A stretch of 41,973 bases of DNA, taken from positions 1-41,973 of IMG/VR virus record IMGVR_UViG_3300047547_000194. One strand, 5' to 3'. This document shows, piece after piece, positions 2,293 to 41,973 of the stretch (the first letter of the stretch is position 1; each line of letters begins with the position of its first letter). A program made the position numbers and the translations under genes. Under the pieces are notes generated by a model. That model searched no databases. It was given only the letters and a program-made list of their open reading frames with translations, and was not told the DNA's origin. This DNA is from a virus.

Positions 2293-2445
2293 ATGAAAAA
2301 AAGTCGCATAGCAGTACATTTTCGCACAGATACAAATCTATATGATATCGTAAAAGATGCTGCCGCAAAGGATGGTCGGACAGTATCTAATTTTGTTCGC
2401 TTGATTATTGAGTCTTATTTCGATAAAAAATCACCATCGAAATAA
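2293..2445 (+). CDS. Ribbon-helix-helix (Arc/CopG-type) DNA-binding protein
   Basis: Fifty residues from ATG 2293. A short beta strand (RIAVHFRTD) is followed by a helix (NLYDIVKDAAAKDG), a turn and a second helix (RTVSNFVRLIIESYF), matching the RHH layout with the conserved S-N-x-[VI]-R turn. RHH dimers insert the strand pair into the major groove and bind short tandem or inverted repeats cooperatively. An upstream in-frame TTG at 2242 is less likely. The gene faces away from the ankyrin gene and converges with another RHH-like gene, overlapping it by 15 nt. It is probably an autorepressor or regulator of the neighbouring operons. Confidence 0.8.
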   Translation: MKKSRIAVHFRTDTNLYDIVKDAAAKDGRTVSNFVRLIIESYFDKKSPSK

Positions 2446-2718: not shown

Positions 2719-2811
2719 GCATTATTCCCCAATAATGTTTATTAAAAAGAAACATACCTTATTTTATTATTTAATCAACTTATTTCATAATATATTTTTA
2801 TGCTGCTTTAC

Positions 2812-2859
2812 AAGTATCCAAGTATCCAAGTATCTAAGTATCCAAGTATCTAAGTATTA
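2812..2859. repeat. Six tandem octamers (AAGTATCY), iteron- or operator-like array
   Basis: Six contiguous 8-bp units: AAGTATCC, AAGTATCC, AAGTATCT, AAGTATCC, AAGTATCT and a degenerate AAGTATTA. They are intergenic, about 95-140 bp upstream of the RHH-like gene start (2718) and about 125 bp beyond the end of the replication genes. RHH repressors bind 7-8 bp tandem repeats (omega heptads, MetJ met boxes), and replication iterons also take this form. Either role fits the position. Confidence 0.9.
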
Positions 2860-2918
2860 TAAGGCATAAAAGTAGTTAATTTTTTGCAACATTATACTAC
2901 GTTCAAAATTGACGTATA

Positions 2919-2984: not shown

Positions 2985-3851
2985 TTACGATGCGATTTGG
3001 AATGTCGTTTGTTGCATCTGTGTTGTATATGTACGGCAGCTGTATATTAGCTCTTTTTCACATTGCTGAGTTCTTTCACGGAATTCCATCCTATTATTCA
3101 ACTCAAAACATTGTTTATCCCAATCACCTAATAGCACTTCACTAGTATATATACTATCTTTTTTTAGCTTTTCGGATCTAAAAGCAGAATAATGATCTTG
3201 GGCACTTCTTCTATAGACATCTCTACCAATAACAAAGTAAGACTTATTGTACTTATATGAATTAGAAATCACTAGGAAGTCACCCCCCAAAAGCTCTGGC
3301 ATTATTTCAGATAGATAATCAATATCATTGGCCATACTTTCCTCTGTTACATATTTAACGCATCGCGATAAATATAACTCCTCCTCCATAGTTCTATCGG
3401 CGGGATCCTTCTTTGATATAGTGGCCATCACAACATTATCTATAGTTACAATACCAGTCTTTATAATCCTAATTATATCCCCAACCTCTGGAAGAACTCC
3501 CTTTGTAGTTCCGCTTGTACAAAATTTAACAAACGCACTCCTAATATTATCTATTGAGTAATCAGCAAGTCCAAGTTGAAACCATTTATTCATGGCCTCT
3601 AAATCATCCCTAGTTTTCCCGAATCTTTTAAGATTCAAGAACGCTCTCTCTAGAAGTAAAAACAGCTCATTCCTTCCATCCTCATACGCTCTAATTGGAA
3701 CGCCATTATTTCTGCTCTCTATCGAATTTGATGATGTTTTCACTAGACGATCCGATGCTCTTATTGAAGGCGAATGCCCTTGCTCGCGATTCGTCTTGAG
3801 CATTACTTTTTGTTCGTACTGTGTTTGTGGATTTTTGTAATTTTCTTTCAT
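2985..3851 (-). CDS. Probable replication protein, helicase-loader (lambda P-like)
   Basis: 288 residues. The central part (FGKTRDDLEAMNKWFQLGL, then ALADYSIDNIRSAFVKFC-type helices and GVLPEVGDIIRII, about residues 77-135) fits the pattern of phage P-like/DnaT-like loaders, in which a short alpha-helical domain of the form 'W-x-x-x-L-x-x-[YL]-[ST]-x-x-x-I ... P-x-x-x-[DE]-[IF]' precedes the loader region. Such proteins bring the host DnaB helicase to the origin. The start has AAAGGAAAC six bases upstream. Its first 146 nt lie inside the 3' end of the upstream initiator gene in another frame. The family call is by pattern only. Confidence 0.6.
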   Translation of the reverse strand: MKENYKNPQTQYEQKVMLKTNREQGHSPSIRASDRLVKTSSNSIESRNNGVPIRAYEDGRNELFLLLERAFLNLKRFGKTRDDLEAMNKWFQLGLADYSIDNIRSAFVKFCTSGTTKGVLPEVGDIIRIIKTGIVTIDNVVMATISKKDPADRTMEEELYLSRCVKYVTEESMANDIDYLSEIMPELLGGDFLVISNSYKYNKSYFVIGRDVYRRSAQDHYSAFRSEKLKKDSIYTSEVLLGDWDKQCFELNNRMEFRERTQQCEKELIYSCRTYTTQMQQTTFQIAS

Positions 3852-4416
3852 ATAAGTTTCCTTTGTTTAACTCTAATCTCTTTTTGCACCAGCCAGCCCA
3901 CATAAGTAAGGTAGCTGATCCTTTATTGTATGACCTAAATTCTGCATAAACCTGATCTATATTATCAAGTAGCCACAGCATATCTTCTTCGCCAACAGTA
4001 AGATTCTTTACACAATCTATAAAAGGTTGTGCAATTTTCTCTGATAAATCATCGTGGGGATCTATATATCCTTCTGGCGCGGGGATCGTGGAGGCGATCT
4101 CTTGCCTTGAAGGTTTTTGATTCAATCTAAAGTTGACAATCTGAATATAATTATTGCCATCTGATTCATATTGGATCAACAAGCCGGCGCTCGTAAGCTC
4201 ATCTATAATGTGCCCAAAAGCAACGGTGCTAATATTGTCATCGAAAGGAAATATATTATATCTTTGTAGCCTTAAATCATTAACCATCCTACCTTGACGG
4301 TCTGCGAACATTGTCATCATGGTGTAGGTATAGCGCGCAATAACACTGCATGATGCAAACTTATTACATAGCAGTTGCCTTGGCATTATAGAACGCATTC
4401 TCTTGTATTGTGTCAT
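3706..4416 (-). CDS. Replication initiator-like protein with N-terminal winged helix (lambda O-like position)
   Basis: 236 residues. Residues 20-105 have the form 'S-x-x-A-R-Y-x-Y-x-x-M-x-x-x-A-D-x-x-G-R-M-x-x-D-x-R-L' followed by an FPFDD turn, a helix (GHIIDELTSAGLLIQYES) and DGNNYIQIVNFRLNQKPSR, which is the winged-helix domain common in phage replisome-organiser proteins. The C-terminal third is charged and probably disordered. GGGGGATC lies upstream of the ATG. It is followed, with a 146-nt overlap, by the helicase-loader candidate, giving the usual O-P order. The origin may be inside this gene or at the octamer array. Confidence 0.7.
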   Translation of the reverse strand: MTQYKRMRSIMPRQLLCNKFASCSVIARYTYTMMTMFADRQGRMVNDLRLQRYNIFPFDDNISTVAFGHIIDELTSAGLLIQYESDGNNYIQIVNFRLNQKPSRQEIASTIPAPEGYIDPHDDLSEKIAQPFIDCVKNLTVGEEDMLWLLDNIDQVYAEFRSYNKGSATLLMWAGWCKKRLELNKGNLYERKLQKSTNTVRTKSNAQDESRARAFAFNKSIGSSSENIIKFDREQK

Positions 4417-9653: not shown

Positions 9654-10103
9654 TTATAGAGAAAGAAAGTTTTTTATAACAACAAGAATAAGAGCCAGCC
9701 CCATCGCACTAAGAAGAATCTTTATCCCTCCAAATATTGAACTAATCTTATTATTTGTAATAACATTCGCTTTTGTCAAATCTTTAACATCATTAGCCAT
9801 CGCGCTTATTGAACTAATCTTATTATCTGTAATAACATTCGCTTTTGTCAAATCTTTAACATCATTGGCAATCGCGTTTAAGGTCATTGTAATTGATCCT
9901 ATTGTACCGTCATGTTTATCTAACCCATGTTTTGCGGTGAGAATTGCATCAACTAATTCCATCTTATGAGCCTCCCTTGCTTCCTCTAGGGAATTAACTT
10001 GCATTTCAATCTTACCTATGTCACGGTGAATAACCCCAATTTGAGAATTCAAGGCCTCAAATTTAGAATCAATAGCCTTATAAGAATGTTTATCTGTCGT
10101 CAC
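9654..10103 (-). CDS. Coiled-coil protein with C-terminal membrane anchor (XhlA-like lysis accessory candidate)
   Basis: 149 residues from a GTG start with AAAGAGGG upstream. A long heptad-type helical region (residues 10-125) contains two tandem 24-residue copies ending in DVKDLTKANVIT-x-NKISSI, and the C-terminus (IKILLSAMGLALILVVIKNFLSL) is one membrane span. That topology, charged coiled coil then one span, is shared with XhlA-type proteins and other lysis helpers. It lies between the tail fibre genes and the holin-like gene. It could also be a superinfection protein. Confidence 0.6.
   Translation of the reverse strand: MTTDKHSYKAIDSKFEALNSQIGVIHRDIGKIEMQVNSLEEAREAHKMELVDAILTAKHGLDKHDGTIGSITMTLNAIANDVKDLTKANVITDNKISSISAMANDVKDLTKANVITNNKISSIFGGIKILLSAMGLALILVVIKNFLSL
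9736..9879. repeat. 72-bp tandem duplication inside the coiled-coil gene
   Basis: Copy 1 (9736-9807) and copy 2 (9808-9879) are nearly identical over 72 bp, exactly 24 codons, so the frame is kept. Low divergence between the copies indicates a recent duplication and suggests that length variants of this coiled coil may exist. Confidence 0.95.
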
Positions 10104-32885: not shown

Positions 32886-33983
32886 ATGTTTTATAAAGGC
32901 GTTCCATCAATACAACAGGCTGCCGCTGCTGTTAGCGCACAATCCGCGCTTCCGTTTATTTCTACGTGGAAGACGAATAACCCTGGCTTATCTACATCTA
33001 CTCAAGTAAAGTTACCCCTAGCAGCAACTGGTACGTATAACTTCCTTGTCAATTGGGGGGATGGGACTCAAGACACCATCACGGTGTGGAATGCAGCAGA
33101 AACTACACACACTTACGCGGTGGCGGGAACTTATATCGTTACGATTACGGGTATATTTACAGGATTTAGATTTGCAGGTGGTGGAGATAGGAGAAAATTA
33201 CTAAACATTTCACAATTTGGTATTTTGCGCTTAGGTGCCAATAATGGCAGATATTTTGAGGGTTGCAACAATCTAACTATTACCGCAGTCGATCCCCTTG
33301 ATTTAATTGGTATAACAAATCTTTTTAAAGCTTTTGCATTCTGCTCATCATTAACGACAGCGCCAGGACTTGCTATTACCGATACTTCAAATATCCAGTC
33401 TTTTCAAAATACATTCGAATTGTGCATCTTATTTAATGAGAATATTGGCAATTGGGATGTTTCTTCTGGCAGCATATTTTCTAATATGTTTATAGACTGT
33501 AATATCTTCAATCAGAACCTTAACAGTTGGGATGTTTCTTCTGGCAGTACATTTTCTAGTATGTTTTCATATTGTTATCTTTTCAACTCACCGTTATCAA
33601 ATTGGGATGTAAGCAATGCTACAACCGTCTATGCAATGTTTTTAGATTGTAATAGTTTTGATCAATATCTTGGTTCTTGGAATCTAGGAAATTGTACAGA
33701 AATATCTTTCATGTTCTACAGGGCATATCTATTTAAAGGGGCTGGTCTAGGGAATTGGGATATTAGAAAAGTTTTATCAGCACAATTCATGTTTGGCGAC
33801 GTTACGCTGCCAACGACAAATTATGATTCTATTTTGATAGGATGGAGCGCTCTAATATTAAAGACAAATGTACCTTTTAGCGCAGGTCTAAGTAAATATT
33901 CGGCTGGCGCAGCGGCGACGGCTCGTACGCTTATAGTCTCTACATACAATTGGACTATCACCGATGGAGGACTTGCACCTTAA
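32886..33983 (+). CDS. PKD-like plus DUF285 (BspA-like repeat) surface protein
   Basis: 365 residues. Residues 25-95 form a PKD-type beta domain ending NWGDGTQDTITVWNAAETTHTYAVAGTYIVTI. From about 130 there are DUF285 repeats, each ending in a W-[DN]-[VLI] strand and an F-x-x-M-F: IGNWDVSSGSIFSNMF, LNSWDVSSGSTFSSMF, LSNWDVSNATTVYAMF, LGSWNLGNCTEISFMF and LGNWDIRKVLSAQFMF. DUF285/BspA repeats are normally on bacterial surface proteins and bind host or matrix molecules. There is no signal peptide, so it is probably a virion protein, mounted through the preceding spike-base-type protein. Adhesion is an inference. Confidence 0.88.
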   Translation: MFYKGVPSIQQAAAAVSAQSALPFISTWKTNNPGLSTSTQVKLPLAATGTYNFLVNWGDGTQDTITVWNAAETTHTYAVAGTYIVTITGIFTGFRFAGGGDRRKLLNISQFGILRLGANNGRYFEGCNNLTITAVDPLDLIGITNLFKAFAFCSSLTTAPGLAITDTSNIQSFQNTFELCILFNENIGNWDVSSGSIFSNMFIDCNIFNQNLNSWDVSSGSTFSSMFSYCYLFNSPLSNWDVSNATTVYAMFLDCNSFDQYLGSWNLGNCTEISFMFYRAYLFKGAGLGNWDIRKVLSAQFMFGDVTLPTTNYDSILIGWSALILKTNVPFSAGLSKYSAGAAATARTLIVSTYNWTITDGGLAP

Positions 33984-34004: not shown

Positions 34005-34220
34005 ATGGTTGAAGAATTTGTATCAAATAGCGTTAAATATATTGTTGCTCATAATGGCTCTGATGTTTACCATTATATTAAGGTAGTGGATGGAAATACC
34101 ACCACAACCGGACTTCCGTATCTTGTCGTTTTTGACACAAAAGAAGAGGCGGTTGCGGAATTTGGTGACAAAATATCTATTTTAGATCCCAATGAGCCTT
34201 ATGAAGATGAACATAAATAA
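34005..34220 (+). CDS. Hypothetical small acidic protein
   Basis: 71 residues with GACAGGAGAATTAT before the ATG. Beta strands (KYIVAHNGSDVYHYIKVVD, LPYLVVFDTKEEAVAEFG) and an acidic tail are visible, similar in plan to many small phage ORFs. It is the last gene of the rightward three-gene cluster and its last 22 nt overlap the convergent RNA ligase gene. The role is unknown. Confidence 0.75.
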   Translation: MVEEFVSNSVKYIVAHNGSDVYHYIKVVDGNTTTTGLPYLVVFDTKEEAVAEFGDKISILDPNEPYEDEHK

Positions 34221-35209
34221 GAGTTGCTAATTACCTTAAATCTCATTTTACCATCTGTTTGCCTAAAGACAATACCTTCACGCATAGGTCTCGTACCAAG
34301 CTCGCTCTTCCCATCCGCCATCTCTAATAGATGCTTAACAGGAGACAAAGGAATACTATCGTATAGGATAGGCACTTGTTGAAAACCCATATGATTACAC
34401 AATCTGCGTCTAGCGATCGGACTAATATATGTTTTTATCTCGATATTATAAATATCAAAGACATAGAAATGCACTCCTTTAAGATTATATATGTTACTCT
34501 GGATACCTTCCCCTACTAATTCTCCTTGAATGGCCATATTATCCCATCCGCATTCCCTCATCTTTCCTTCTAAGTCATCTGCAATCGCAGTTTTCCATAA
34601 AGAATTGTTCTCATCTCGCAGGAGGTCAAGATTGCGACTACAGACACCAAATACCCCATCAATCATGTAACATGTCATTGATGTTCCTTCTAGCTTTTCT
34701 GTCACCTCAAATCTTTCATGAGCATGAGTTAGACATAATGCATTTATTTGGTGGGCAAGATTTTGACATCTCTCTTGATCGGTTTTTGGTATAGAAGATG
34801 GTAGATTGCCTTTGGCCACTCCCATTAATTGTACTGATATAGGCTTCTCATACTTCACTATGCGCAATATATCTGTTACATCATTATCAATAGTTTTATC
34901 TCTATCATCACCAAGAAGAGAAAGAGGAAGAAGTAACCCTTGTGACAATTGACCACGTAGCTTTATGGTTCTTAATCTTTCTCCTTTAATATTCATGTAT
35001 TCTTTTGGCTTATTCCCCTTTGAAAGAAATGGCGCTAGTTCGGTTGGTATCCATGAATCTACCTCACAATAAATAACAAGATCTCCTACTTTATGGTCAT
35101 ACTTCTTTATAACGGCCTGCCATCCTCCAATAATCGCAAGTTCAATATTGTCTGCATCAGGAATAGCCCGTATATCATCGATTTTTTTAATAACAGCCAG
35201 TCTTCTCAT
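34199..35209 (-). CDS. RNA ligase (DRB0094/Rnl5 family)
   Basis: 336 residues. An N-terminal OB-like domain (IPDADNIELAIIGGWQAVIKKYDHKVGDLVIYCEVDSWIPTELAPFL, quoted in part) precedes the nucleotidyl-transferase domain: motif I EKLEGTS with the adenylated Lys172, a motif III/IIIa FYVFDIYN, motif IV REGIVFR and motif V RFKVIS near the C-terminus. This is the domain order of Deinococcus DRB0094-type ligases, which seal 3'-OH/5'-P nicks where the 3' strand end is RNA. In phages RNA ligases repair host tRNAs cut by defence nucleases. It is the last gene of the leftward accessory operon. Confidence 0.88.
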   Translation of the reverse strand: MRRLAVIKKIDDIRAIPDADNIELAIIGGWQAVIKKYDHKVGDLVIYCEVDSWIPTELAPFLSKGNKPKEYMNIKGERLRTIKLRGQLSQGLLLPLSLLGDDRDKTIDNDVTDILRIVKYEKPISVQLMGVAKGNLPSSIPKTDQERCQNLAHQINALCLTHAHERFEVTEKLEGTSMTCYMIDGVFGVCSRNLDLLRDENNSLWKTAIADDLEGKMRECGWDNMAIQGELVGEGIQSNIYNLKGVHFYVFDIYNIEIKTYISPIARRRLCNHMGFQQVPILYDSIPLSPVKHLLEMADGKSELGTRPMREGIVFRQTDGKMRFKVISNSYLCSSS

Positions 35210-35500: not shown

Positions 35501-35828
35501 CATCAGTTATCTCCTTTATGATTGCAAATACCCCTACTGGGATTCCATTAATTACACTGAATCTTCCCTTCCCCTTATATTTTCTACTATCTGAAGTTTC
35601 GGGTCTGGAAGGAAGATAGGCAGCCCACGTCGCCAATCCTATATCCTTACCAGAATCATGGAACATAATGTCTATTATTCCACGGCCACCTCTACGCCAT
35701 GTTAACGCCCATGTACCATTGTATGGTTCGCGATGCGCTTTTTGCCTTACTCCTAACTTCCGCACCTTTCTTTCAAACAAAAGTGCTAGGAATAAGGAAT
35801 CAATATTTGAACCTTGTACATATTTCAT
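35493..35828 (-). CDS. Hypothetical protein, 111 residues
   Basis: Basic N-terminal part (ERKVRKLGVRQKAHREPYNGTWALTWRRGGRGIIDIMF) and a beta-like second half ending RFSVINGIPVGVFAIIKEITDDE. I do not recognise the family. It overlaps the start of its downstream neighbour and is itself coupled to the upstream integrase-arm-like gene by a 4-nt overlap (ATGA). It might fold as a small nucleic-acid-binding beta protein; this is a guess from charge. Confidence 0.7.
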   Translation of the reverse strand: MKYVQGSNIDSLFLALLFERKVRKLGVRQKAHREPYNGTWALTWRRGGRGIIDIMFHDSGKDIGLATWAAYLPSRPETSDSRKYKGKGRFSVINGIPVGVFAIIKEITDDE

Positions 35829-36256
35829 CTAACTTCCTTAATAGGTATAATATTGAACCCAATTGAATATGTGCAGGATTCTCCATCTCTATATCTACCA
35901 TTATTTGTTTTATCTTTTCGTAGTTCATTGCCTTCTCCTATTAATTCTAGCATCTTTAGTATATTGTCACTCTCCTGCGCGTTTAACAATCGCCTTATTT
36001 TCTTTTCCGAAGTTGGGTGTTTTCCTACATCTACCAATCCGCGCGCTGTATCGCGCTTCTTTCTGGCCTCTGCGAGCGATATGGCAGGATATTTTCCTAG
36101 TGCCAGCATTTGCTCTTTTCCCTGATAGTAATACCGCCAGCGCCACAACTTACTACCGGATGTTGTGATCTCTATGCACAACCCCTCACTATCTGTTACA
36201 CGATATATCTTCGCTCTAGGCTCTAGATTCTTGATTTCTATTTCAGAGAGTGGCAT
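35825..36256 (-). CDS. Stand-alone integrase arm-binding domain (DUF4102), no catalytic domain
   Basis: 143 residues. Residues 1-85 match the N-terminal arm-type DNA-binding domain of P4-like tyrosine integrases: MPLSEIEIKNLEPRAKIYRV, DSEGLCIEITTSGSKLWRW, and ALGKYPAISLAEARKKRDTARGLV. The full enzyme is about 400 residues with core-binding and R-H-R-Y catalytic parts. Here none follows; the rest (residues 86-143, NAQESDNILKMLELIGEGNEL and a beta-like tail) is unrelated. No ribosome binding site is obvious. It lies inside the leftward operon with close spacing. It may be an integrase remnant or a regulator that binds arm sites. Confidence 0.82.
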   Translation of the reverse strand: MPLSEIEIKNLEPRAKIYRVTDSEGLCIEITTSGSKLWRWRYYYQGKEQMLALGKYPAISLAEARKKRDTARGLVDVGKHPTSEKKIRRLLNAQESDNILKMLELIGEGNELRKDKTNNGRYRDGESCTYSIGFNIIPIKEVR

Positions 36257-36263
36257 ATATATA

Positions 36264-37133
36264 TCAATGTACTATACTAAATTTTCTTTTACTTCCTTTA
36301 AAGAATGAATCCCTTTCGCATATATTTCTAGGGTGCCATTGTACATATTTTTGTCCTGCAAATAGCCTTCTATTTTCAGGCGTATCACACACATGCGCGC
36401 TTATCCTTGCTGCTTTCTTGAAGCCCGTATCTGAGGTATGGGCACCGCATAATATAGTACCTACAAGCTCTGCATTGGTGAAATTTGTATCAATAAAGGA
36501 GGATGAGCAAAAATTAGTATGCAATAGATATGCATTTGAGAAATCTGTGAATAGAGCGAAACTCATACTTAGATCAGCGAATGCTAGATTTGCGTCACTA
36601 AAATCCGCTCCTGTTAGATCTGACGCTACAAATCCTGTGTTCTTGAGATTGGCCAGACGAAAGATCGTGCCGTTAAATACTCCTTCATTAAAATCCGCGT
36701 CCTCTAGGAATTCGCCATAAAGATTCATGCCACTTAAATCTACTCCCCTAAAGTCCGCCCTAACACCTTCTTTGCGTTCTGAGTCGAACCATATTCTATG
36801 CAACCTTATCCTTTCTTTTACTTCTTCGTGCGTCATCCTATTCTTTACAGTATCAAGCGTAGCATAATTTACCATATGCCGGCCTTCTACTATTCGGCCT
36901 CTTCCATTGGAAAGCTCAGAATTAGAGTTTATAAATGACGTCTTATCTAATACCTTGCATTCGGTATATTCTTTAAGAATATACCGATATCCATCACCAA
37001 TATCATGCTCATGAATATGATCCTTTATGTAATTACAGGCATCTTCCTTTGTAGGAAAGAGTGCAGTGTCTGCCTTAGAATGGATCTCATTGTAGTAACA
37101 AGACCTTATTGACGTTACAGTATATAGTTTCAT
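36264..37133 (-). CDS. Pentapeptide-repeat protein with N-terminal unknown domain
   Basis: 289 residues. Residues 1-90 (KLYTVTSIRSCYYNEIHSKADTALFPTKEDACNYIKDHIHEHD and following) resemble the N-terminal part of several small proteins in this operon (tyrosine-rich beta strand, then a 'A-x-x-[YF]' helix). Residues 120-235 hold pentapeptide repeats such as ADFRG, VDLSG, ADFSD, ANLAF and ADLSM. The C-terminal 45 residues are basic (KAARISAHVCDTPENRR and on). Function is unknown; the same beta-helix fold can mimic DNA. It overlaps the upstream gene by 4 nt. Confidence 0.85.
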   Translation of the reverse strand: MKLYTVTSIRSCYYNEIHSKADTALFPTKEDACNYIKDHIHEHDIGDGYRYILKEYTECKVLDKTSFINSNSELSNGRGRIVEGRHMVNYATLDTVKNRMTHEEVKERIRLHRIWFDSERKEGVRADFRGVDLSGMNLYGEFLEDADFNEGVFNGTIFRLANLKNTGFVASDLTGADFSDANLAFADLSMSFALFTDFSNAYLLHTNFCSSSFIDTNFTNAELVGTILCGAHTSDTGFKKAARISAHVCDTPENRRLFAGQKYVQWHPRNICERDSFFKGSKRKFSIVH

Positions 37134-38408: not shown

Positions 38409-38732
38409 TTAAACTCTCTTATAATCTTCATAAAATTCCTTTCCTACACTCTCGAATGAGCCTTCAATACCGCAAAATATGCAACGTAAATATAACTCTG
38501 GCTTATCGCTATAATCATAATACATTTTTCCATCTTCCAGCACTTTAGCAGGAATGTGGCGGTCAATTATATATCTACATTCATCATCCAACCCTTTCCT
38601 AGATCTCATATTTGAGATAAACTCTAGGGCGTCATCTCTGGAAAAAAATATATGAGCCTCCCCCGATTTCCCATGACCATAGATAATCATAACCGTATAA
38701 AGCTCTTTTAATTCTTCTGAATCTTTACTCAC
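38409..38732 (-). CDS. Hypothetical protein sharing a C-terminal motif with 39538-40023
   Basis: 107 residues from a GTG at 38732 (AAGGAGGCGGT upstream), preferred over the in-frame ATG 38750, which lies before the ribosome binding site. VSKDSEELKELYTVMIIYGHGKSGEAHIFFSRDDALEFISNMRS is a beta-alpha domain of the 'Y-x-V-x-x-x-Y ... F-x-x-x-x-x-A-x-x-[FY]' type, shared with its neighbours. It ends GSFESVGKEFYEDYKRV, which recurs nearly unchanged at the DNA level in the gene at 39538-40023. No function known. Confidence 0.75.
   Translation of the reverse strand: MSKDSEELKELYTVMIIYGHGKSGEAHIFFSRDDALEFISNMRSRKGLDDECRYIIDRHIPAKVLEDGKMYYDYSDKPELYLRCIFCGIEGSFESVGKEFYEDYKRV
38421..38468. repeat. 48-bp dispersed repeat, copy 1
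   Basis: 46 of 48 bases match 39694-39741. It encodes the motif GSFESVGKEFYEDY, ending one gene but lying mid-gene in the other. Confidence 0.9.
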
Positions 38733-39021
38733 ACCGCCTCCTTTTGTCACAGATTGTACGAAGGTCCTTAAATTCTTTTCCTATTAATCCTGTTTCATCA
38801 ATAATAATTATTTCGACATCAGAAAGATCATTCTCCCTATAAATATTTCTTAGATGACCATCTCTCCCACAGTAGCGTATCGTGTATTTTCTTCGGCTCT
38901 TGCTTCTCTCGTCCGCATAATTATCCCGACATAATTCCAGAACTCTCGGCCAATTATCCGCTGCGCCAATAACTTCCCCCCATTCACCGATCTTATATTT
39001 CGACACTATCACAATATTCAC
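38725..39021 (-). CDS. Hypothetical protein, 98 residues
   Basis: GTG start after AAGGAGGGGGC. NIVIVSKYKIGEWGEVIGAADNWPRVLELCRDNYADERSKSRRKYTIRYCGRDGHL is a beta-alpha-beta plan like the preceding gene. Charged and possibly a cytoplasmic binding protein; the family is not recognised. Its last codons (RRRCE) form the ribosome binding site and start of the next gene. Confidence 0.72.
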   Translation of the reverse strand: MNIVIVSKYKIGEWGEVIGAADNWPRVLELCRDNYADERSKSRRKYTIRYCGRDGHLRNIYRENDLSDVEIIIIDETGLIGKEFKDLRTICDKRRRCE

Positions 39022-39537: not shown

Positions 39538-40023
39538 TCAATAGTCTGACTTATATTGTGGGTATTTCTTGCAATTCTTAAACAATTCTGCTGCACAACT
39601 TATTGTTATTTTCTGTACAACTCCATCCAACTCCTCAAAATTAATTATTTCAATTTTACTCTTCTCATGAAACTCTCTTCTTTCATTTGCCACATAATCT
39701 TCATAAAATTCCTTTCCTACGCTCTCGAATGAGCCGTCAATATTCTTAACATAATAAGCAAGCTCCTGATCGCGATCGTTAATTATCTTTATTATACCCC
39801 ACTCTAATTCTCTATAGAGACTTATGATAGGGGTTATAGTTTCATTCTCTATTCTGCAAATATTTGCAATTGCGCTATTACTATAATCGTCATAATCCTC
39901 CCCACTCAACACCCGATTACACGCAGATTCGTAGGCGCTTTCATAGTCTTTGAATATCTTCGAAAAACTTCCAGAATACTCATAAAAGAACAAAACCATT
40001 TTTCCATTTTCCATATTACTCAC
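39538..40023 (-). CDS. Hypothetical protein with repeated GSFESVGKEFYEDY motif
   Basis: 161 residues from GTG 40023, whose AAGGGGGGC follows the operon's start cassette; the in-frame ATG at 40041 is upstream of the site. SNMENGKMVLFFYEYSGSFSKIFKDYESAYESACNRVLSGEDYDD gives a beta-alpha head like its neighbours. The mid part carries IDGSFESVGKEFYEDYVANERREFHEKSK, and a beta end follows (FEELDGVVQKITISCA). Unknown function. Confidence 0.75.
   Translation of the reverse strand: MSNMENGKMVLFFYEYSGSFSKIFKDYESAYESACNRVLSGEDYDDYSNSAIANICRIENETITPIISLYRELEWGIIKIINDRDQELAYYVKNIDGSFESVGKEFYEDYVANERREFHEKSKIEIINFEELDGVVQKITISCAAELFKNCKKYPQYKSDY
39694..39741. repeat. 48-bp dispersed repeat, copy 2
   Basis: Second copy of the repeat at 38421-38468, two mismatches. 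The copies are 1.3 kb apart, on the same strand, in genes that otherwise differ, which suggests recombination between gene modules. Confidence 0.9.
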
Positions 40024-40099
40024 GCCCCCCTTCGCCTCCACCTGTTTCCAGCCAATTCTTATGTTCTTCCAGTATTTTCGCGAGAGTTTCTTTGTCCAT
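40016..40099 (-). pseudogene. 27-codon remnant of a pentapeptide-repeat gene head
   Basis: ATG 40099 to TAA 40016. The product MDKETLAKILEEHKNWLETG followed by GGEGGRE is nearly the same as the first 24 residues of the pentapeptide-repeat protein at 638-1270 (M-x-K-E-T-L-x-K-I-L-E-E-H), and the DNA match is also close. The repeat region is gone and the frame runs into the next start. AAAGAGGAGAAAT precedes it, so it may still be translated. It is either a deletion remnant or a donor of the head. Confidence 0.75.
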
Positions 40100-41751: not shown

Positions 41752-41963
41752 TTAATATCCAATTTTCTCATTATTCGTCTCTGCCCACCTTATAAATCTA
41801 AGCCTCCTTTCACTTACAGGCCAACCACTCATCTCAAAATCCTCAAGTGTATTAGCGGCATCACTAATATACTCAGATCCATTTTCACGCCTCTAATAAT
41901 AAATTTGAATATAATCATTGTGCCTATTAAGCTATCTGTTGTTATCACATAGTATTTATTCAT
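41752..41963 (-). pseudogene. Broken small gene across the circular junction
   Basis: From ATG 41963 one frame gives a 44-codon ORF (MNKYYVITTDS..., to TGA at 41829). Its later part looks unnatural, while the -1 frame reads LNRHNDYIQIYY, a TAG, then RRENGSEYISDAANTLEDFE and SERRLRFIRWAETNNEK to TAA 41752, in the style of the neighbouring proteins. The second part can start only at ATG 41832 (26 codons). A one-base change near the S-L junction plus the amber codon would explain the pattern. It may instead be two tiny real genes, since their ATGA overlap looks normal. Confidence 0.5.
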
Positions 41964-41973
41964 CTACCGCCCC
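41847..41973. repeat. Terminal direct repeat, right copy (circular overlap)
   Basis: Identical to bases 1-127. Joining the contig here gives a circle of 41,846 bp and keeps the leftward operon continuous: the gene ending at 110 runs straight into the ORF starting at 41963. Confidence 0.95.

Follow-up and report, generated by a model that had tools for sequence, protein, structure and literature searches.

A tandem octamer array beside the replication genes of an IMG/VR phage as a candidate origin repeat module outside the initiator gene

What is the role of a short run of octamers that lies between the presumed replication operon of a phage and a small putative ribbon-helix-helix (RHH) gene? 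We addressed this question in the IMG/VR virus record IMGVR_UViG_3300047547_000194, which was analysed over its whole length of 41,973 base pairs (bp) and is called the window below. The octamer array (2812-2859, minus strand) is located in a gap of 266 bp (2719-2984), the size given by an earlier sequence-only reading; the gap follows the stop codon of gene 2985-3851 and precedes the start of gene 2431-2718 (named RHH2), both on the minus strand. That reading had counted six contiguous AAGTATCY octamers. The array is indeed present and tandem, but the count was slightly overstated, because only five units are exact (2812-2851) and the sixth, AAGTATTA (2852-2859), departs from the motif at its final two bases (AAGTATTA). 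Read on the coding strand of the replication initiator gene, the units are GATACTTR at 8-bp steps, and Tandem Repeats Finder reported positions 2811-2857 with a period of 8, 5.9 copies and 92% matches. In an ungapped scan of periods 4 to 30 the array scored 27 and no other run in the window reached 20, whereas shuffling gave at most 11, both for the whole window (20 shuffles) and for the gap (500 shuffles). The array is thus the window's strongest short tandem run and far beyond chance, as had been proposed.

The evidence that bears most directly on its function came from phages with homologous initiators. We fetched twelve annotated phages of this kind, one record being without gene annotation, and in all twelve the initiator gene itself contained a short tandem array, immediately 3' of the part encoding the winged helix. 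In these phages the in-gene array was the only one above threshold from 1.5 kilobases (kb) before to 2.2 kb after. A scan of IMG/VR with the initiator alignment yielded 80 loci, 66 of them distinct, with some relatives close to one another. Across the 66 distinct loci, the initiator genes (57.6 kb) accounted for 58 arrays and the remaining 448 kb for 18, and an above-threshold array was present in 45 of the 66 initiator genes; many of the genes under the threshold retain degenerate CTGATTC or CTGAATC repeats. The repeat score exceeded that of all 20 synonymous-codon shuffles in 57 of 70 initiator genes, and the periods of 7, 8 and 11 are out of step with codons. From these two observations, the in-gene repeats appear to be maintained as DNA and not for the protein that they encode.

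CTGAWTC is the commonest motif in the relatives' initiator genes, with spacings mainly of 7, 8, 14, 15 and 21 bp, and the repeat words include CTGATTC, GGATTC and GGATACC at steps of 7-8 bp. When a cluster was defined as at least four GATWC within 50 bp, the relatives' initiator genes contained 30 clusters on the coding strand and 2 in the opposite orientation, and the 535 kb of DNA flanking these genes had none. Phage DNA that had not been selected by this initiator (948 kb) contained a single cluster, located in another initiator-like gene. The only GATWC cluster of the window is the octamer array itself, on the coding strand of the initiator (GGATACTT/AGATACTT). The array therefore matches the relatives' repeats in core word, strand and 7-8 bp spacing, and the GGATACC heptads of the relative L107 are nearest to it in sequence. 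The sequence-only reading had suggested a search of related phages for the same array; no exact copy was found in IMG/VR.

Besides the GATTC-type repeats, a pair of 11-mers of the AAGCACCRKRC type was found in 29 of 71 initiator genes, upstream of these repeats, and the 11-mers came first in all 22 genes with both 11-mers and CTGAWTC repeats. In the loci L066-L145 and L054-L065 the composite region, from 11-mer to CTGAWTC, extends from about +300 to +640 relative to the initiator start. The 11-mers may be the initiator binding sites of these relatives, and the composite region is possibly a general origin signature.

The array of this phage lies 0.85 kb from its initiator gene and on the same strand. 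The gene (3706-4416, minus strand) is predicted to encode a winged-helix replication initiator of 236 amino acids, as had been proposed from sequence; the call holds, based on a match to PHROG 16167 (E=5e-16) and on a predicted structure with a high-confidence N-terminal domain. The nearest solved folds of the model were 4pql, a plasmid RepA (RepA_N) initiator structure, and 4pt7, with a modest E-value (about 0.0025), and winged-helix proteins came next. 4PT7 is listed among the structures of plasmid RepA (RepA_N) initiators (PMC7145576). The gene has a short linker and no in-gene repeats (repeat score 7, against 7.1 in synonymous-codon shuffles). Its 3' end is overlapped by the gene 2985-3851 (minus strand), a presumed helicase loader. 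The function of this gene is deduced from its position only, at which relatives carry a DnaC-like loader or a DnaB gene; no match was found in Pfam, PHROGs, NCBIfam, IMG/VR or the phage records. Of the replication genes that had been placed on this side of the array, the initiator thus stands, and the loader remains presumed. On the other side, the array adjoins an A+T-rich stretch of 72 bp (2740-2811, no strand assigned), a candidate unwinding region with 83% A+T, a value matched by just 0.07% of 72-bp windows.

We propose that the array is probably the short-tandem-repeat module of a lambda-O-like replication origin, which here is separate from the initiator gene. The comparative evidence thereby favours a cis site for origin control, one of the options offered by the sequence-only reading. 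The repeats would be a platform for cooperative assembly of the initiator, or of a complex of the initiator with host protein, after which the A+T-rich DNA alongside would open and the loader would bring in the helicase. Among the features of a lambda-O-like origin, family-type repeats near the initiator and an adjacent A+T-rich region were seen and an in-gene position was not; because the array is outside the gene, we regard it as a variant and not as an ordinary origin of this type. We infer from sequence that replication starts at the array, that the initiator recognises its repeats and that the array was relocated from inside the gene; the repeats could instead form a strand-opening element rather than initiator binding sites.

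Several observations weigh against this proposal. GATAC is rare in the relatives, occurring in 2 genes compared to 25 with GATTC, and the W in GATWC was picked after both motifs had been seen; among random octamers with this base composition, about 1.5% would hold GATWC on the right strand. The 11-mer element of the relatives is not clearly present in this phage, where a single 11-mer-like site (2798-2808, minus strand; AAGCAGCATAA) has two mismatches to the relatives' 11-mer and is near chance level. Triplets of the GATACT octamer were also seen in 11 unrelated viral stretches that lack this initiator and share no context. No relative with an array outside its initiator gene was found, so that the displacement rests on one genome; the locus L094 was considered as a second displaced case and rejected, since its outside repeat consists of two 15-mers within open reading frames. 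The array also sits at the position expected of an RHH2 operator. The GC-skew check suggested for mapping the replication start was run, and by eye the skew follows gene direction and is uninformative on the origin.

The main rival, which we consider unlikely, is that the array is this operator, with RHH2 dimers binding cooperatively to the octamers, one per unit, and repressing their own promoter. MetJ boxes, which are 8-bp direct repeats, offer one model for such a site. The RHH protein omega offers another, being bound to contiguous non-palindromic 7-bp repeats over its own promoter (PMC9499535). The location agrees with this explanation: 94 bp separate the array from the downstream RHH2 start, the region is A+T-rich and promoter-like, and a TATAAT (2856-2861, minus strand) that overlaps the sixth unit is a possible -10 box of a candidate RHH2 promoter. 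The promoter itself is less convincing, as no convincing -35 match was found at consensus spacing, the promoter scan did not pick up the TATAAT, and promoter-like sites were as numerous as in shuffles. RHH2, an Arc-like putative regulator of 95 amino acids, matches PHROG 3431 ('Arc-like repressor') weakly (E=8e-5) and no Pfam family, and its low-confidence structure model has two helices and no strand. RHH1 (2293-2445, plus strand), a putative RHH protein of 50 amino acids, lies beyond RHH2 and is convergent with it, and its match to Pfam RHH_5 is also weak (E=6e-5, under the curated cut-off). Both are therefore plausible, though weak, RHH calls; the two genes near the array that had been described as RHH genes are present, but the array is upstream of RHH2 and not of RHH1. 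No relative of RHH2 was detected in IMG/VR, GTDB genomes, phages or plasmids, and hence no conservation of the gene together with the array. An RHH protein of that PHROG family was detectable in only 1 of 45 records of initiator-sharing phages with similar arrays, and the agreement with the initiator-family repeats in word, strand and spacing would have to be coincidence. The binding of RHH proteins to the array, as originally suggested, thus found no support.

Further explanations were also weighed. The array could be an origin module inside which the RHH2 promoter starts, so that initiator and RHH2 compete and replication is coupled to regulation; it does have the replication operon on one side and RHH2 on the other, and the TATAAT overlaps its sixth unit, but the lack of a consensus-spaced -35 match, the shuffle-like number of promoter-like sites and the hypothetical nature of binding by either protein make this quite improbable. 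We find it somewhat less improbable, while still decidedly unlikely, that the origin has left the initiator gene to stand on its own between genes, with repeats that extend into the promoter of the small RHH regulator; replication and regulation would then gate each other at a shared site. Slippage could also have made the tract, which would have no dedicated binding protein and be neutral or tune RHH2 expression through its copy number. The order of the variants (CC, CC, CT, CC, CT, TA) is as expected from duplication of 16-bp pairs, and tracts of similar octamers are also seen in viral contigs unrelated to this phage; however, the array is unique in the genome, lies next to replication genes and shares the repeat word of the family on the correct strand, and we judge slippage very improbable. 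A partition (centromere-like) site of a phage-plasmid, which had been raised as a real possibility, would explain the likeness to RHH-bound parS heptads (PMC9499535). It is the least probable of these explanations, as no ParA-type ATPase (PF13614) was found in the genome by a search that was positive in 14 of 14 reference genomes used as control, confirming the earlier remark that ParA is absent. A search for the StbA/ParM family gave no match in the genome nor in any control genome and is hence uninformative.

Other features of the gap were also considered. Between the end of the replication operon and the array there is a hairpin (2919-2959, no strand assigned) whose 14-bp stem pairs perfectly; it is a probable terminator of that operon. 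As for an RNA element, no Rfam match was found at the array, and the gap folds at a low energy that includes this terminator-like hairpin. An inverted repeat flanking the array was not significant, 130 of 2000 shuffles being equally good, and there is no plausible minus-strand reading frame that would contain the array.

Tandem arrays were observed in other settings as well. The terminase relatives of this phage are distant only, yet they gave the first in-gene arrays. Heptamer (AACCAAG/T) or hexamer (TACAGA) arrays lie inside a different initiator-like gene in L010 (4638-4666; also in L011, L012, L014, L015 and L037) and in L045 (1379-1408); the prophages with these arrays share the terminase with this phage and are probably of Burkholderia. 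GATACT octamer arrays were seen in the unrelated viral contigs L149 (2532-2625), L151 (6219-6248) and L153 (14257-14278).

The window carries a 127-bp direct terminal repeat (1-127 and 41847-41973), either an overlap of a circular assembly or a true terminal repeat, and is therefore probably a complete genome. An integrase arm-binding domain (PF13356) was found in a protein of 143 amino acids (35825-36256, minus strand), and the tyrosine-recombinase catalytic domain (PF00589) was not found in the genome; the gene encodes either an integrase remnant or a free-standing arm-binding protein. Longer tandem repeats occur in predicted genes at 9735-9880 (72 bp, 2 copies, 94%) and 33449-33610 (75 bp, 2.2 copies). 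Pentapeptide-repeat and ankyrin-repeat proteins are encoded in accessory regions (638-1270, 1728-2327 and 36264-37133, all minus strand), and an RNA ligase with a PHA02142-type OB-fold domain at 34199-35209 (minus strand). The proteins encoded at 38409-38750 and 39538-40041 (minus strand) have a common stretch (GSFESVGKEFYEDY) and are probably paralogues.

If the proposed origin is correct, it would give this phage a concrete site of replication initiation and would provide a simple rule for finding origins in many uncharacterised phages: one would look within winged-helix initiator genes for short repeats of the CTGAWTC type spaced by 7-8 bp, whether or not 11-mers precede them. An origin within the gene ties the protein linker of the initiator to the DNA sequence of the origin, and this phage would show, as a natural experiment, whether the origin has to lie there.

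Compared with known systems, the array resembles omega/parS of pSM19035 and the MetJ boxes in that direct repeats of 7-8 bp follow one another without gaps close to a small, here putative, RHH gene; it differs from omega/parS in that the octamer is unlike WATCACW, no ParA was found and binding by RHH2 is hypothetical. The phages LESphi2, F10, yong1, IME307 and IFTN1 and the IMG/VR relatives share with it a homologous initiator, the GATWC core, the strand and the 7-8 bp spacing, whereas the relatives have their repeats within the gene, often with upstream 11-mers, and here there is one intergenic array with at most one 11-mer-like site. In ori-lambda, A+T-rich DNA adjoins the repeats. The lambda origin contains four 19-bp iterons that are bound by O (PMC3985674) and is located midway in the O gene, and Pseudomonas phage MD8 has repeats within its O-like gene (PMC8508860). 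Lambda and lambda-like phages thus resemble this locus in the order of initiator gene and (here presumed) loader gene, in the repeated (here candidate) initiator sites and in the A+T-rich neighbour, but lambda has 19-bp iterons in the O gene and this phage 8-bp tandem units outside its initiator gene. The Vibrio PLE satellite has a RepA_N-type origin whose iterons are in noncoding DNA and not in the initiator gene (PMC7145576); although its link to this phage is modest and at the level of fold only, both have a winged-helix initiator and noncoding repeats outside the gene. With the lambda origin inside the O gene and the PLE iterons in noncoding DNA as precedents, the array can be read as the repeat module of an origin that has been displaced from its initiator gene.
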